Assembly (NCBI GenBank): GCA_905479835.1
Contig: CAJQNZ010000028.1
Span: 1-46,856, forward strand
Length of the DNA stretch: 46,856 nucleotides
Reading direction: 5' to 3'
Origin: an uncultured Flavobacteriaceae bacterium
Lineage (GTDB): Bacteria > Bacteroidota > Bacteroidia > Flavobacteriales > Flavobacteriaceae
The notes beneath the pieces were generated by a model. The model saw only the letters and a list, made by a program, of their open reading frames with translations, was not told where the DNA came from and ran no database searches. The translations under genes and the position numbers were made by a program. Shown one piece after another: positions 40,095 to 46,856 of this stretch. How positions within the stretch are numbered: position 1 is the stretch's first letter; every line of letters begins with the position of its first letter.

Positions 40095-42674
40095 ATGTCA
40101 AACCAACCAAAAATTGCTAGATTTAATCAAAATGTACTGTCTAAATATCAAATATACAATAGTATTTTTATGACACTCCCTTTTGACTCAATTACAAAAA
40201 CAGGGGTTTTACTGCCGTTGTTTCATGAGACCTGTGAAAAAGGCTTTAAAATAGGTAATAATCCAACTGCAATCGTTCACACCTTTTTTGAAAAATATCA
40301 AGCAAGACGATCTCCAGAAAGCCAGATCAATTTACTCTTTCGTTTTATACAATATATTGAACGTCAAGTTGTATTGTTTGACGCGATTGAAGATGCTGCC
40401 TTCCCAACCGTTCATAATATGGATGGTATCGGTACATTAAGAAGTCTAAAAGAAAAGACAACTGCTGAAAATAAATTGGAAATACTTCAGAAATGTATTG
40501 AAGAATTTAAAGTGAGAATTGTCTTGACTGCTCATCCTACTCAATTTTATCCTGGATCAGTTTTAGGTATTATTACTGATTTAACAGATGCTATCAAGGA
40601 AAATGATTTATTACGCATTAATGATTTATTAGCACAACTTGGAAAAACACCATTCTTTAAGCATAAAAAACCAACACCTTATGATGAGGCTGTAAGTTTA
40701 ATATGGTATTTAGAAAATGTGTTTTATAAATCATTTGGAAAGATATATGATTACATTCAACAAAATATATTTGAAGGAAAACATATTGATAACGATATTA
40801 TTAATATTGGTTTTTGGCCTGGAGGAGACAGAGATGGAAACCCTTTTGTTACCCCAGAAATTACACTAAAAGTTGCAAAAAGACTAAAAGAAACAGTTAT
40901 AAAAAACTATTATCGAGATGTGAGAAAACTTCGCAGAAAACTAACATTTGAAGGAGTTGAAGAAAAAATAGTAGTTCTAGAAACTGAATTGTATAAAATT
41001 ATTACCAATAAAAAAACTCATTTAACATTAGAGAGTTTTAAATTAGACTTAAAAGAAATTAAACAACATATTGTTGATAATCATCAATCACTTTATGTTT
41101 CTGAAATTAATAGTTTGATAAATAAGGTACATCTATTTGGTTTTCATTTTGCCAATTTAGACATTCGTCAAGATAGTAGAAAACATGAAGAATATTTCAA
41201 TAACATGGTAAATACTATGATTGAAAACAAAAGTGAAAGTTTGCCTAAAAACTATCATAATTTATCAGAAAAAGAACAAGTTAAAATTCTTTCTGAAATC
41301 AAAGGTTCTGTTGATTTATCATTGATAAAAGATCAAGATACACTTAAGGCTTTAAACACCATAAAGGCATTAAAAACTATCCAAGAAACAAATGGAGAAA
41401 AGGCAGCAAATAGATATATCATAAGTAATAATCAATCAACATTGCATGTGATGCAACTATTTGCAATGCTTAAATTAGTTGCTTTTCAAGAGAAGTTGAC
41501 TGTTGATATTGGACCTCTTTTTGAAACGATTACAGATTTAAAAAATGCTCCAAAAGTTATGGAAGAATTATATACTAATCCAGTATATGCTGCACATTTA
41601 AAATCTCGTGGAAACAGACAGACAATTATGCTTGGCTTTAGCGATGGTACAAAAGATGGAGGATATTTAATGGCAAATTGGGCTATATATAAAGCAAAAG
41701 AAAACTTAACAAAGATCTCGAGAAAATACGATATAACCGTTATTTTCTTTGATGGACGAGGAGGTCCTCCTGCTCGTGGAGGTGGAAAAACACATAATTT
41801 TTATGCATCTTTAGGGCCTACTATAGAAGATAAAGAAGTACAATTAACAATTCAAGGTCAGACGATTAGTTCAAATTTTGGAACATTAGACTCTTCACAA
41901 TACAATCTAGAACAATTAATCAGTTCAGGAGTCCACAATAGATTAAGTGATACTGATTTAAGCATGCTTCCTGAAAATAGAATTGTTATGGATAACCTTG
42001 CAAAATTAAGTTATGAAGCTTATGTGAATTTTAAAGCACATCCAAAGTTTATTTCATATTTGGAGCATATGAGTACACTTAAATATTATGCTAAAACGAA
42101 TATCGGAAGTCGACCTTCTAAAAGGGGAAAAGCAGAAGGATTGGTTTTTGAAGATTTAAGAGCTATACCATTTGTAGGATCTTGGAGCCAATTAAAACAA
42201 AATGTACCAGGTTTTTTTGGAGTAGGAACCGCATTAAAAAGTTATGAAGATGCTGGTGAATTTGAAAAAGCACAACATTTATTTAAAACGTCAAGCTTCT
42301 TTAAAACATTGATTGAAAATAGTATGATGTCTTTGTCTAAATCATTTTTTGATTTGACTAAATACATGTCAGAAGATGAAGAATATGGTGAGTTTTGGAA
42401 TATTATTCATACAGAATACCAAACAACAAAACGTCTTATTTTAAAACTCACAGGATTTACGGAGTTAATGCAAGAAGAACCTGCAGGTAAAGCATCCATT
42501 GCAATTAGAGAATCAATTGTGTTACCATTGTTGACCATTCAGCAGTATGCGTTAAAAAAGATTCAAGAACTTAAAAAAGAAAAAGTAATCGATGAAGCGC
42601 AAATTAAAGTGTATGAAAAAATTGTGACACGCTCCTTGTTTGGAAATATAAACGCAAGTCGTAACTCTGCTTAA
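40095..42674 (+). CDS. ppc: Phosphoenolpyruvate carboxylase
   Basis: An 859-residue enzyme that carboxylates PEP to oxaloacetate to refill the TCA cycle. The active-site elements are the His in TAHPTQFYPG (about residue 150), the GFWPGGDRDGNPFVTPE segment and the Gly-rich RGGPPARGGG loop followed by KTHNFY. The LGFSDGTKDGG motif takes the place of the common SYSDSGKDAG. The C-terminus ends RNSA rather than the usual RNTG. These differences look like a lineage variant, not damage, because all domains are present and the length is normal. The gene is monocistronic, with a strong shared terminator before amt. Confidence 0.94.
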   Translation: MSNQPKIARFNQNVLSKYQIYNSIFMTLPFDSITKTGVLLPLFHETCEKGFKIGNNPTAIVHTFFEKYQARRSPESQINLLFRFIQYIERQVVLFDAIEDAAFPTVHNMDGIGTLRSLKEKTTAENKLEILQKCIEEFKVRIVLTAHPTQFYPGSVLGIITDLTDAIKENDLLRINDLLAQLGKTPFFKHKKPTPYDEAVSLIWYLENVFYKSFGKIYDYIQQNIFEGKHIDNDIINIGFWPGGDRDGNPFVTPEITLKVAKRLKETVIKNYYRDVRKLRRKLTFEGVEEKIVVLETELYKIITNKKTHLTLESFKLDLKEIKQHIVDNHQSLYVSEINSLINKVHLFGFHFANLDIRQDSRKHEEYFNNMVNTMIENKSESLPKNYHNLSEKEQVKILSEIKGSVDLSLIKDQDTLKALNTIKALKTIQETNGEKAANRYIISNNQSTLHVMQLFAMLKLVAFQEKLTVDIGPLFETITDLKNAPKVMEELYTNPVYAAHLKSRGNRQTIMLGFSDGTKDGGYLMANWAIYKAKENLTKISRKYDITVIFFDGRGGPPARGGGKTHNFYASLGPTIEDKEVQLTIQGQTISSNFGTLDSSQYNLEQLISSGVHNRLSDTDLSMLPENRIVMDNLAKLSYEAYVNFKAHPKFISYLEHMSTLKYYAKTNIGSRPSKRGKAEGLVFEDLRAIPFVGSWSQLKQNVPGFFGVGTALKSYEDAGEFEKAQHLFKTSSFFKTLIENSMMSLSKSFFDLTKYMSEDEEYGEFWNIIHTEYQTTKRLILKLTGFTELMQEEPAGKASIAIRESIVLPLLTIQQYALKKIQELKKEKVIDEAQIKVYEKIVTRSLFGNINASRNSA

Positions 42675-42765: not shown

Positions 42766-43998
42766 TTAATGCTCATTTAATCTAAAATCTGGATACGCAT
42801 CCATTCCATGTTCATGTGAATCAAGACCTTCAAGTTCTTCGCGTTCTGAAACTCTTATCCCAACAGTTTTCTTCAATGTATAAATAATTATAAAAGAAGA
42901 CACTATACAAAGTACAGCATAAGAAGCAACACCAATAAGTTGGCTTAAAAATTGAGATCCACCAGCAAGTTCTCCAAAAATACCAACTGCTAAAGTTCCC
43001 CAGACTCCACATACTAAATGCACAGCTATTGCTCCTACAGGATCATCTAATTTTAATCGATCAATTAATGAAACTGCAAATACAATGATCGCTCCAGCAA
43101 TCCCTCCAATAAGTATCGCATCCGTTGGACTCATCTGATCTGCACCAGCAGTAATACCAACTAAACCTCCAAGTATACCATTTAAAAACATGGTTAAATC
43201 TAAATTTTTATATTTAATAGTTGATACAAGTGCTGCAACTACACCACCTGCAGCAGCAGCTAAACAAGTTGTTACAAGTGTTAATGAAGTTAAAGCTGGA
43301 TCTGCAGATAAAACAGAACCTCCATTAAATCCAAACCAACCTAACCATAAGATGATAACTCCTGCAGTTGCCAATGGAATATTATGTCCAGGAATCGCTT
43401 GTATTTCTCCTTCTTTGAATTTTCCAATCCTTGATCCTAACAAACAAACTGCCACTAGTGCTGCCCATCCTCCAACAGAATGCACAAGTGTTGATCCTGC
43501 AAAATCATAAAAAGGAGTTGATAATTGGTCTAAAAATCCGCCTCCCCATTTCCAAGAACCTGCAATTGGGTAGATCAATCCAACATAGATTATTGTGAAA
43601 ATCATAAAAGGCCCTATTTTCATTCGTTCAGCAACTGCTCCAGATACAATGGTTGCAGCTGTTGCGGCAAACATTCCTTGGAATAAGAAATCTGTCCAAT
43701 ATGTATAACCTTCATTATAGCCTAGATCTAAATCTCCAGCATCAGTAAATGGAGCATCTAAACCAAAACCTGCAAACCCTAAAAATCCATTAAAATCTCC
43801 AGGATACATTAAATTAAATCCAACTAATGTGTATAATAATAATCCAACTGTGATAATAAACATATTTTTGAATAAAATATTTATTGTATTTTTTTGTCTT
43901 GTAAGTCCGATTTCTAAAAACGCAAAACCAAGATGCATAAAGAAAACGAGTGCCGTACAGATCATCATCCATACATTATTTATAGTAAGTAATTCCAT
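42766..43998 (-). CDS. amt: Ammonium transporter
   Basis: A 410-residue, ~11-helix Amt/Rh protein that moves ammonium across the inner membrane. The twin pore histidines are in GSTLVHSVGGW and GAIAVHLVCGVWG. Other Amt hallmarks are GFALEIGLTR-like FAFLEIGLTRQKN at the N-terminus, the DFAGSTLVHS filter region and WLGWFGFNGGS. It ends in a short soluble tail. Its gene follows the PII gene by 7 nt; in many bacteria PII binds and closes Amt, so the pairing fits ammonium-dependent control. It is the last gene of the porin-PII-amt unit. Confidence 0.95.
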   Translation of the reverse strand: MELLTINNVWMMICTALVFFMHLGFAFLEIGLTRQKNTINILFKNMFIITVGLLLYTLVGFNLMYPGDFNGFLGFAGFGLDAPFTDAGDLDLGYNEGYTYWTDFLFQGMFAATAATIVSGAVAERMKIGPFMIFTIIYVGLIYPIAGSWKWGGGFLDQLSTPFYDFAGSTLVHSVGGWAALVAVCLLGSRIGKFKEGEIQAIPGHNIPLATAGVIILWLGWFGFNGGSVLSADPALTSLTLVTTCLAAAAGGVVAALVSTIKYKNLDLTMFLNGILGGLVGITAGADQMSPTDAILIGGIAGAIIVFAVSLIDRLKLDDPVGAIAVHLVCGVWGTLAVGIFGELAGGSQFLSQLIGVASYAVLCIVSSFIIIYTLKKTVGIRVSEREELEGLDSHEHGMDAYPDFRLNEH

Positions 43999-44005
43999 AT
44001 TCTTA

Positions 44006-44344
44006 TTATTTTAAAGTTTGACCGCCTTTTTCGCCCGTTCTAATTCTGTACACATCATCAATTTGTGAGATAAATATTTTTCCATCCCCAATTTCACCTG
44101 TAGCAGCAGATTCAAGTATTGCTTTAATAGTTACACTTTCAAAATCATCATTTACAACGATTGATATATAGCGCCTTTGGATATCACTTGTACTATAAGA
44201 GACACCTCTATAGACATGCCCTTCTTTTTCATTTCCTAGTCCTGTTACATCCCAATACGAGAAGAAATTTACACCAACCTCATGCAGTGCTTTTTTAACA
44301 GAAGAAAATTTTGATTTTCTAATAATTGCTTCAACTTTTTTCAT
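44006..44344 (-). CDS. PII-family nitrogen regulator
   Basis: A 112-residue PII signal protein. The C-terminal ATG EIGDGKIFIS and RIRTGEKG signatures are clear, and the T-loop has a Tyr in the expected place (YRGVSYSTSD). It should sense 2-oxoglutarate and ATP/ADP and control the adjacent Amt. The T-loop is somewhat different from E. coli GlnB/GlnK (IQRRYISIVV follows it). It lies between the porin gene (15 nt) and amt (7 nt), all one transcript. GlnK-like by context. Confidence 0.9.
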   Translation of the reverse strand: MKKVEAIIRKSKFSSVKKALHEVGVNFFSYWDVTGLGNEKEGHVYRGVSYSTSDIQRRYISIVVNDDFESVTIKAILESAATGEIGDGKIFISQIDDVYRIRTGEKGGQTLK

Positions 44345-44359
44345 TTTATATAGTTTTAG

Positions 44360-45355
44360 TTAAAATTTATAAATAGCAGTTAATGTAAAGGCGCTTAAAC
44401 TTTTTGTAGCATCTGAATCATTGTCAACATATACATCTTCAGAATTGCTATCAAGACGTAATTCTGGTTTGATAGTTAAATTATCAATAGTATAACTTCC
44501 TGTCAAAGTAACAGCATACACATCTAAAGCATCAGTAGATGCATCGATATCACTTAACCAATCAAAATATTCACTTCTTAAACCGATTGAGAAACTATCA
44601 GAAATAGCATACTGAGGATACAAAGCAGCACCCATAAAACCTTCTCCATTATTATCTACATATGCTGCATTAATTCCTAGATAAAAAGAATCTGAAACAT
44701 CAAAACCTCCTGTATAATCTATTTCAAAACCTAGCACTTCACCATCATCATAATAAAGGTTTAAGTATTGACCTGCATATCCTAATTGAGTACCTAAGGC
44801 ATAACCTCCTGTTGTGTTTTTATTTACATCTGTAGGATTCATAAATGCTAGCATCAAACTAAAATCTTCAGATAAAGCAAAATCTGCTTTTATACCAACA
44901 TGAGAAAATGGTCCACTAGAAAATAAATAAGATGTACTGTAGTTGAAATTTCCAGTTGGCGAAATTACTTCATATCCTAAATAGGTGTTGAAACGTCCTA
45001 ATGTTAATTTAGTTTTTTCACTTACATTCCAATAAGCATATAACTGATTTAGATTATATCCTCCAGTTGCAGCATCACCTCTTGGTCCAAAAACCAAATC
45101 TGCAACTGCACCTACTTTTCCTTTTTCATAAGATGTAATAAGATTTGCCATTCCTAATGCAAAGCCATTTTCGTCTGCAAACGATGTTCCGAATGATTGA
45201 CTTATATCGTCTGATGAAGATAAATTTGTTTGATAATAAACATCGACACTTCCTTCTAAAGAAAATTGTTGCTCTTTAGTCTCTGTTTCTGTAGTTTCTT
45301 GAGCTGTTACTATTATTGAAGCCAATAATAAAGTTAAAGTAAATAATTTTTTCAT
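44360..45355 (-). CDS. Outer-membrane beta-barrel porin of the nitrogen operon
   Basis: A 331-residue protein with a signal peptide (starting MKKLFTLTLLLASIIVTAQ) and many alternating amphipathic strands, ending in an aromatic residue (AIYKF), which indicates an outer-membrane barrel. It resembles the OmpL-like porin families (BBP2/Gcw_chp type) rather than TonB-dependent receptors. A start four codons upstream (45367) is possible, but the Met at 45355 gives a standard signal peptide. As first gene of the porin-PII-amt unit, it may let nitrogen compounds cross the outer membrane. That role is inferred from context. Confidence 0.75.
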   Translation of the reverse strand: MKKLFTLTLLLASIIVTAQETTETETKEQQFSLEGSVDVYYQTNLSSSDDISQSFGTSFADENGFALGMANLITSYEKGKVGAVADLVFGPRGDAATGGYNLNQLYAYWNVSEKTKLTLGRFNTYLGYEVISPTGNFNYSTSYLFSSGPFSHVGIKADFALSEDFSLMLAFMNPTDVNKNTTGGYALGTQLGYAGQYLNLYYDDGEVLGFEIDYTGGFDVSDSFYLGINAAYVDNNGEGFMGAALYPQYAISDSFSIGLRSEYFDWLSDIDASTDALDVYAVTLTGSYTIDNLTIKPELRLDSNSEDVYVDNDSDATKSLSAFTLTAIYKF

Positions 45356-45408
45356 AATAATTAACATTTATCGTTAGTAAGCACTCAAAACTATATAAAA
45401 AATCATCA

Positions 45409-45423
45409 ACCCCCTAAAAAATA
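45409..45423 (-). promoter_or_regulatory. Inverted copy of the 15-bp putative nitrogen-control motif
   Basis: The reverse complement reads TATTTTTTAGGGGGT, identical to the core of both 43-bp repeat units (45467-45481 and 45510-45524). It points toward the porin-PII-amt side, 54 nt before the start of that operon. Confidence 0.6.
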
Positions 45424-45454
45424 CACCCTATTAAATCTATTTTTATTATTATTA

Positions 45455-45540
45455 TATTTTAATCCCTATTTTTTAGGGGGTATAATAAATTTAATGATAT
45501 TTTAATCCCTATTTTTTAGGGGGTATAATAAATTTAATGA
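45455..45540 (+). repeat. Perfect 43-bp tandem duplication, likely operator
   Basis: Two adjacent identical 43-bp units (45455-45497 and 45498-45540) each contain TCCCTATTTTTTAGGGGGT with an imperfect CCCTA / TAGGG dyad. A few extra bases of a third unit follow. The repeat lies between the divergent nitrogen-assimilation genes, so a regulator-binding role is inferred. Confidence 0.8.
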
Positions 45541-45807
45541 TATTTTTTTATAATATTCATATTTTAAAATTATTGTTTTTTTGATGAATCTTAATTTTTA
45601 ATGAATTATATTCAATGTTTTATTATTTTCGAAAACGATTTAGCAATAAAAATGAATTTTTGTTAAATTTTATTTATTGAAGATTCGATATTTTGACAGC
45701 ATATTAATTGTATTAATTGTATTTAAATAGTAGCATATTGTGAATTATTGAAAAGTGTTTGTGCTTTTTTTTTAATCAAAATCAAGTATATATATTGGTC
45801 ATATAAT

Positions 45808-45823
45808 AAGGGTACAAACCCTT
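45808..45823 (+). promoter_or_regulatory. Palindrome in the gltB leader
   Basis: A short dyad, AAGGG paired with CCCTT around TACAAA, lies 16 nt before the gltB start. It shares the GGG/CCC character of the upstream motifs and could be an operator or a small leader hairpin. Confidence 0.35.
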
Positions 45824-45839
45824 TAATAATTTTAGAATT

Positions 45840-46856
45840 ATGCTGAAGAAACAAGGACTTTATTTACCAGAATTTGAACACGATAATTGTGGCGCAGGAT
45901 TTATATGTAGTTTAACTGGAAAACGTTCAAATGATATTATTCATAAAGCATTAGAAATTTTGGTAAAACTAGAACATCGAGGCGCTGTAAGTTCTGATGG
46001 TATAACTGGAGATGGCGCAGGTATTTTAATTGATATTCCTCATAAGTTTTTCAAAATATTTTGTGAATTTGATTTACCAGAAATTGGAGAATATGCAGTC
46101 AGTAATGTTTTTCTTCCTAAAAAAAATAACCAACGGCAATATTGTATTGATGTTTTTGAAACTGAAATAAAAAATCAAGGGCTTAAACTTATAGGTTGGA
46201 GAGATGTTCCAGTAAATAGTGAAGTTTTAGGTACAGTTGCTAAAGTAACAGAACCGTTTGTAAAACAAATTTTTATTGCAAAAACTAACAAAAAACAAAC
46301 AGACAGGGAATTTAATTTAAAATTATTTGCGGCTCGAAAAATAGCAGAACATACTATATATAGTTCTAAATTATCTGAAGCACAATTCTTTTATCTTCCA
46401 AGTCTTTCTACTAAAATCATAATTTTTAAAGGTTTATTGAAACCTGAACACATAAATGAATATTATCTAGATTTATTTAATTCGGCTTTAGATACACGAT
46501 TGGCATTGGTTCATCAACGTTTTTCTACCAATACATTTCCAACTTGGGATTTAGCACAGCCGTTTAGATACATTTGCCATAATGGAGAAATAAATACCCT
46601 TCGAGGAAATGTATCTCGTATGTTTTCTCGTGAAGAGATTATGGAAAGTCCATTATTTGGAGAAGATATAAAAAAGATAATTCCAACCATTTTAAAAGGG
46701 AAATCAGATTCTGCAACTTTAGATATGGTTGTTGAGTTGTTGTTAATGACAGGTCGCTCACTTCCAGAAGCCATGATGATGCTTGTGCCAGAAGCATGGG
46801 AAAAAAACCCAAATATGTCTGACGCTAAAAAAGCATTCTACGAATACAATTCTTGT
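45840..46856 (+). CDS. gltB: Glutamate synthase large subunit (3' partial)
   Basis: The first 339 codons of the large subunit of glutamate synthase, which transfers the amide nitrogen of glutamine to 2-oxoglutarate to form glutamate. The N-terminal glutaminase domain begins after a 16-residue propeptide; Cys17 in NCGAGF is the expected mature N-terminal nucleophile. Further class II amidotransferase markers are KLEHRGAVSSDGITGDGAGIL, RFSTNTFPTWDLAQPFRYICHNGEINT and a late SDSATLDMVVELL segment. The frame runs open to the window edge. It lies opposite the porin-PII-amt operon, consistent with joint nitrogen control. Confidence 0.96.
   Translation, partial: MLKKQGLYLPEFEHDNCGAGFICSLTGKRSNDIIHKALEILVKLEHRGAVSSDGITGDGAGILIDIPHKFFKIFCEFDLPEIGEYAVSNVFLPKKNNQRQYCIDVFETEIKNQGLKLIGWRDVPVNSEVLGTVAKVTEPFVKQIFIAKTNKKQTDREFNLKLFAARKIAEHTIYSSKLSEAQFFYLPSLSTKIIIFKGLLKPEHINEYYLDLFNSALDTRLALVHQRFSTNTFPTWDLAQPFRYICHNGEINTLRGNVSRMFSREEIMESPLFGEDIKKIIPTILKGKSDSATLDMVVELLLMTGRSLPEAMMMLVPEAWEKNPNMSDAKKAFYEYNSC

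Follow-up and report, generated by a model that had tools for sequence, protein, structure and literature searches.

In cyanobacteria, NtcA, a protein of the Crp family, uses one palindrome near −35 of a sigma-A-type promoter before glnA, amt and glnB. The NtrC/sigma-54 system of Pseudomonadota has paired palindromic sites upstream of like target genes, and the operators of GlnR, TnrA and AmtR in Gram-positive bacteria lie before glutamine synthetase (GS), amt and PII genes, AmtR of Corynebacterium being a repressor that leaves its operator upon nitrogen shortage. Lrp, AsnC and AldR count GS genes, gltB and the alanine dehydrogenase gene (ald) among their targets and have a 15-bp site; Lrp sites combine short arms and an A/T-rich centre with helically phased repeats. 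To our knowledge, nitrogen sensing and response are poorly known in Bacteroidota, and a full-text search, which covered few subscription journals, returned no publication naming a regulator or motif such as that described below in its title or the opening of its abstract.

The element analysed here comes from a window of 46,856 nucleotides (the whole stretch of DNA under study) of an uncultured Flavobacteriaceae bacterium, where it lies between a porin-PII-amt operon and gltB. Comparison with relatives makes it very probable that the element is the operator of a nitrogen-assimilation regulon in Flavobacteriaceae, read by a dimeric protein as two dimers on the same face of the helix. It resembles the NtcA regulon in having a palindrome near the core promoter and the same kinds of target, but the palindrome is another one, it comes as a pair 53 bp apart, and no Crp/Fnr orthologue is common to the three genomes compared (G090, G212 and G183). 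With NtrC/sigma-54 it shares the kinds of target gene and the paired palindromic upstream sites; here, however, the promoters are of the TAnnTTTG type, and an exact sigma-54 core, GG-N10-GC, was found between site and gene at none of 44 two-site porin loci, on which ground sigma-54 control was rejected. The operators of GlnR, TnrA and AmtR are set apart by their consensus sequences. Lrp/AsnC sites are alike in their short arms, A/T-rich centre, phased repeats and GS, gltB and ald targets, but the CCC/GGG arms of the present element span 17 bp, against 15 bp for an Lrp/AsnC site, and LrpB, the AsnC-family paralogue most closely linked to the sites, is not in every site-bearing genome. Nitrogen-regulon operators are of a known kind, and the paired architecture is what is distinctive here. 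In a study of Flavobacterium psychrophilum, its sigma-54 promoters are assigned mainly to protein quality control, envelope stress and gliding (PMC9723704).

The original prediction started from three identical 15-bp motifs lying between two divergent nitrogen-assimilation units, and both observations hold. By Pfam, the minus-strand unit encodes a BBP2 porin, PII and Amt, and the plus-strand unit the large subunit of glutamate synthase (Table 1); the true porin start is probably 12 bases inside the ORF, at the second ATG, as in relatives. The exact 15-mers, TATTTTTTAGGGGGT, lie at 45409-45423 (−), 45467-45481 (+) and 45510-45524 (+), with no further exact copy in the window. The duplication of a 43-bp unit is perfect, as had been claimed (45454-45496 and 45497-45539, read from the sequence), and is followed by the 7-base start of a third unit; a repeat search frames it otherwise, as 84% over a shifted register. 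Dinucleotide shuffling of the 472-bp intergenic region, repeated 2000 times, gave 4 sequences with some 15-mer in at least three copies and 1 whose best palindrome score attained the observed 18.1. The 13-base core, TTTTTTAGGGGGT, was found at six places with at most one mismatch in the window's own genome, three of them in this region, compared with eight for a reversed control; the core is therefore unenriched elsewhere in this draft genome (1.9 Mb, 82% complete). A phosphoenolpyruvate carboxylase gene (40095-42674) is convergent with the operon, and such a gene lies on the operon's 3' side in 39 of the 80 porin loci described below (L036-L115). The gltB of the window is 88-89% identical to those of a congener, G003, and of G022, from another genus, and 65-70% identical to those of seven other congeners (L008 and L009 against L017, L023-L025, L027, L031 and L032), which suggests a transfer or an old paralogue swap.

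Table 1. Features of the operon and its upstream region, in window coordinates
Feature	Position	Strand	Basis
Ammonium transporter Amt	42766-43998	−	PF00909, E 2e-116
PII nitrogen regulatory protein	44006-44344	−	PF00543, E 7.6e-22
BBP2 beta-barrel porin, first gene of the operon	44360-45367	−	PF07642, E 2.7e-59
Predicted −7 box TAGTTTTG, TAnnTTTG type, of the porin-PII-amt operon	45386-45393	−	Coordinates and relatives' geometry
Putative promoter-proximal operator (minus-strand copy)	45409-45429	−	Inferred centre 45419
Seven bases, ACACCCT, in the outer arm of the proximal operator	45423-45429		In silico flip
Perfect 43-bp tandem duplication with the distal operator	45454-45539		Read from sequence
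Putative distal operator, copy 1, palindrome ATCCCTATTTTTTAGGGGGTA, centre 45472	45462-45482		PWM score 18.1
Putative distal operator, copy 2, from the tandem duplication, 43 bp farther out, centre 45515	45505-45525		PWM score 18.1
Large subunit of glutamate synthase, gltB, divergent, truncated at the window end	45840-46856	+	PF00310, E 8.2e-123

The loci named here are the best 80 porin alignment matches and come from many genera (Lacinutrix, Winogradskyella, Maribacter, Algibacter, Cellulophaga and others). A divergent gltB lies 386-511 bp off in 48 of these 80. The first gene of the porin/PII/amt operon has one or more sites in front of it at 75 of the 80: all 48 with a divergent gltB, L085, and 26 of the 32 others, where PII is the first gene and is preceded by sites. 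Among these best 80, the operon lacks a preceding site at L062, L086, L094 and L103, and the upstream sequence of L078 is 56 bp only. Within 560 bp upstream of the porin itself, at least one site was found at 53 of the 80 loci, including all 48 with a divergent gltB, and two sites at 44, with a centre spacing of 53 bp in 38, 52 bp in five and 54 bp in one. A symmetric position weight matrix (PWM) of 97 sites gave the consensus (A/C)CCC-N11-GGG(T/G), N11 being A/T-rich. Scores at porin-upstream loci are high by construction, since the matrix was trained there; the GS, ald, second amt (amt2) and PII-first loci are independent of the training set. L077 (position 4982) and L097 (position 4948) have sites before PII and, in the amt-porin gap within the operon, one additional strong palindrome located 16-41 bp upstream of the porin start.

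A gltB match was present in 29 of 60 genomes, the window's own included. Eleven gltB upstream regions were read by eye besides that of the window; none has the 43-bp duplication, and the region of G003 has a half-like match alone before gltB. Seven of the eight regions with a porin or PII operon divergent from gltB hold two inverted repeats with CCC/GGG arms and an A/T-rich centre. The dyad originally ascribed to the 15-mer is present, but the unit is a longer palindrome of 17-21 bp that extends past the 15-mer, and the minus-strand copy has its second arm disrupted.

In the window, the distal operator scores 18.1 against a best value of 5.7 elsewhere, outside the intergenic region. The proximal operator scores poorly as it stands: its promoter-side arm, AGGGGGT, is intact and its outer arm is disrupted. 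The −7 box is 26 bp away from its inferred centre and the next site 53 bp away, the same layout as in relatives. Flipping 45423-45429 in silico restores the palindrome and raises its score to 22.3, and since the reverse complement of ACACCCT completes a canonical palindrome, a tiny inversion may have taken place. The sites lie at promoter distance from the porin operon. In the genome from which the window comes, the glnA promoter carries a site, located between GSIII and GSII, with a score of 25.2; the congener G003 has no site before glnA.

TAnnTTTG is the −7 box of the main flavobacterial sigma factor. It occupies −12 to −5 (PMC9723704). At 29 of the 44 two-site porin loci, the only TAnnTTTG between the proximal site centre and the gene starts 25-27 bp downstream of that centre; 500 shuffles averaged 0.15 such loci and never gave more than two. 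Counted from the start predicted in this way, the two sites would be centred near −38 and −91. The looser TAnnTTT stands at 24-27 bp at 10 of 11 PII promoters and 6 of 6 GSII promoters, and the box distance is less regular at GSIII and ald promoters than at porin, PII and GSII promoters. Four loci depart from the −38 geometry: at L190 and L191 (amt2) and at L377 and L378 (GSIII, from other families), the nearer site lies directly against the predicted start codon.

The motif occurs at nitrogen promoters (PII, amt, glnA/GSIII and porin-PII-amt|gltB) in many genera and is far rarer elsewhere, in keeping with the nitrogen role first proposed for it. A blind scan of 249 family genomes, using as pattern the pair with its 53-bp spacing and up to two mismatches, found the pair in 155 genomes and in 147 of 235 genera, against 4 of 249 genomes for the reversed pattern. 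Among the matches listed, 27 of 30 pair loci adjoin a common set of genes: porin-PII-amt with divergent gltB, PII-amt beside crcB, GSII, GSIII, alanine dehydrogenase and a second Amt, all named by Pfam on representatives only. The exceptions are L155, L166 and L172, and L165, counted among the 27, adjoins a porin only. Of 19 further places, hand-picked among the matches listed in favour of second loci and unlabelled ones, 18 adjoin the same set (the exception is L193), and it is from these, not from the blind 30, that the second amt was added as a target. The pair was missing from 94 of the 249 genomes, a number of which have single sites.

In genomes picked for lacking the pair, single-site matches were present in 31 of 38, and 12 of the 30 single-site loci among the matches listed adjoin GSIII, GSII, PII, ald or amt2. 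GSIII upstream regions carried a site in 12 of 17 cases and none in the other five; G036, G123 and G234 are among the genomes whose GSIII lacks one. Small genomes have their sites at PII/amt, porin, gltB or GS genes. Scanning 12 genomes for single sites gave 39 forward matches and 7 for the reversed control; 23 of the 39 lie in the porin region, and the other 16 comprise 8 inside ORFs, 7 in intergenic regions and 1 before ald in G027. The seven intergenic matches were rejected as further targets, having no gene in common across these 12 genomes. A close GSII match was missing in 15 of 28 genomes searched, mostly picked for lacking the pair; 13 of the 15 gave a weak cross-match to GSIII and two gave none.

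At class level the pair was found in 7 of 295 genomes, compared with 4 for the reversed control, so it is unenriched in number. Two of the seven are family members with the pair at nitrogen genes, and in three of the other five it precedes GSIII: in G431 and in two members of a single genus, G540 and G397, whose site sits right at the start codon. The remaining matches, in G350 and G384, look like chance. A reach of the operator past the family is only suggested.

The site, its spacing, the promoter geometry and the regulon can be read directly from the sequences, and they support the original prediction of a binding site for an uncharacterised nitrogen regulator of Bacteroidota. From them we infer binding by a protein, cooperativity, a nitrogen response and activation. 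A putative dimeric DNA-binding protein would recognise (A/C)CCC-N11-GGG(T/G), and two dimers would sit on one face of the helix, 53 bp or five turns apart, at about −38 and −91; in the window, the tandem duplication would supply a third site at about −134. Nitrogen shortage would then lead to activation of the porin-PII-amt operon, the glutamine synthetases, alanine dehydrogenase and the second Amt. Activation of the regulon when nitrogen is short is the most likely mode of control, with activation judged somewhat likelier than repression. The account that best survives beside it is that a repressor holds the same operators and is released when nitrogen runs short, in the manner of AmtR. The proximal site would span about −48 to −28, over the place of the −33 element, and repressors typically have palindromic operators over the core promoter; a site at −38 would also suit one. 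At the 44 two-site loci, however, the proximal site stops before it reaches the −7 box and the distal one is placed five turns farther upstream, a layout that fits activators better, so that repression is a real possibility but the less probable one.

Whether the sites would also govern gltB, forming one bidirectional switch, is a separate question. The gene is divergent from the operon in 48 of the best 80 loci and belongs to the same pathway. Against this, the site pair lies 302-328 bp from the gltB start in the relatives' loci measured, the regions read by eye hold no palindrome at promoter distance from gltB, and at many loci the operon keeps its sites without gltB. In the window, more than 300 bp separate the gltB start from the nearest intact site, and on balance we think a bidirectional switch rather unlikely.

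Candidates for the reader of the operator were surveyed in small, nearly complete genomes, the families covered being Crp/Fnr, NarL-type, REC-AAA and Lrp/AsnC. The single Crp/Fnr match of G090 is not orthologous to those of G212 and G183 (no mutual match at E 1e-3), which match each other at 47%; this comparison took in these three genomes, a further match being present in G093, and very divergent HTHs could escape it. Related NarL/FixJ (GerE) proteins are present in G090, G093, G183, G185 and G211, and the shared type was not found in G212 (98% complete), where the only matches were a 941-aa protein and a fragment, of another type, at a contig end. On these comparisons, neither Crp/Fnr nor NarL-type proteins fit as the regulator. 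Pfam gave no DNA-binding domain for the REC-AAA proteins that lie close to the PII clusters in G090 and G212. Receiver-AAA proteins of the sigma-54 activator type that lack a DNA-binding domain (L248:1786-2949 (−) and L252:1264-2436 (−)) lie near dnaJ-grpE and the PII clusters, their loop reading GSFTSA or GAFTSA; the usual loop of sigma-54 activators is GAFTGA. The nitrogen cluster of G090 also contains, between an amt gene and PII-amt, a 216-aa ORF with no Pfam match (L248:11093-11740 (+)). LrpA, of the AsnC family, was set aside because it went unrecognised in G090: of the two AsnC matches there, one is LrpB (77% to the query) and the other, at 41% to LrpB, falls in the LrpC range. Elsewhere, LrpA is repeatedly found close to PII, amt, porin or glutamine synthetase genes (L252:12744-13199 (−), L254:14621-15058 (+) and 14 of the 80 porin loci), and in L252 it adjoins a DUF1684 gene.

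That some Lrp/AsnC-family protein reads the operator is doubtful, though several observations point that way. The shape of the operator, with short arms, an A/T-rich centre and phased repeats, resembles Lrp sites, and LrpA, as an AsnC subgroup, keeps company with PII, amt and GS genes. LrpB, another, is encoded close to the position that ald occupies in other genomes, and in G027 it is 2.7 kb from ald. All 36 site-bearing genomes chosen for the comparison have it (35 with the pair and the window's own), as do 20 of 38 pair-lacking ones (Fisher p 6e-7, uncorrected for phylogeny). However, LrpB-less genomes also have single sites at nitrogen genes, at GSIII in G202, G101, G025 and G020, at PII|gltB in G110 and at amt2 in G025, so LrpB cannot be the sole reader. 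The best matches of LrpB-less genomes, at 35-42% identity, fall in the LrpC range, few having been placed in a tree. LrpC, the third AsnC subgroup, seems universal, which is compatible with the role but not specific to it.

The palindromes might instead act as RNA hairpins of a leader, attenuator or terminator. Inverted repeats with G+C arms can fold, and at a few loci the palindrome abuts the start codon or lies inside the operon between amt and porin (L077 and L097). At the main promoters, however, the sites are upstream of the predicted −7 box and so outside that transcript, their spacing follows the helical repeat, the element keeps a similar distance to whichever gene comes first in the operon, and Rfam gave no match at E up to 1 in 45300-45900; we regard a role in RNA as very improbable. 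Chance repeats in an A/T-rich, low-complexity intergenic region, which shuffling rarely produces, can be dismissed, as the arms, spacing and promoter distance are conserved across genera and the comparative data refute it.

The genomic evidence for a conserved nitrogen operator in the family is strong. It is likely that Flavobacteriaceae, and perhaps other families of the class, have an undescribed, dedicated global nitrogen regulator that acts through paired palindromes five turns apart at sigma-A promoters, independently of NtrC/sigma-54, NtcA and GlnR. Given the operator, the promoter architecture and a list of targets, this regulator should be directly findable by DNA pull-down. Bacteroidota are major degraders of organic matter. 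The site model can be used to predict nitrogen control in many of their genomes, and nitrogen control in these bacteria becomes a directly testable question.
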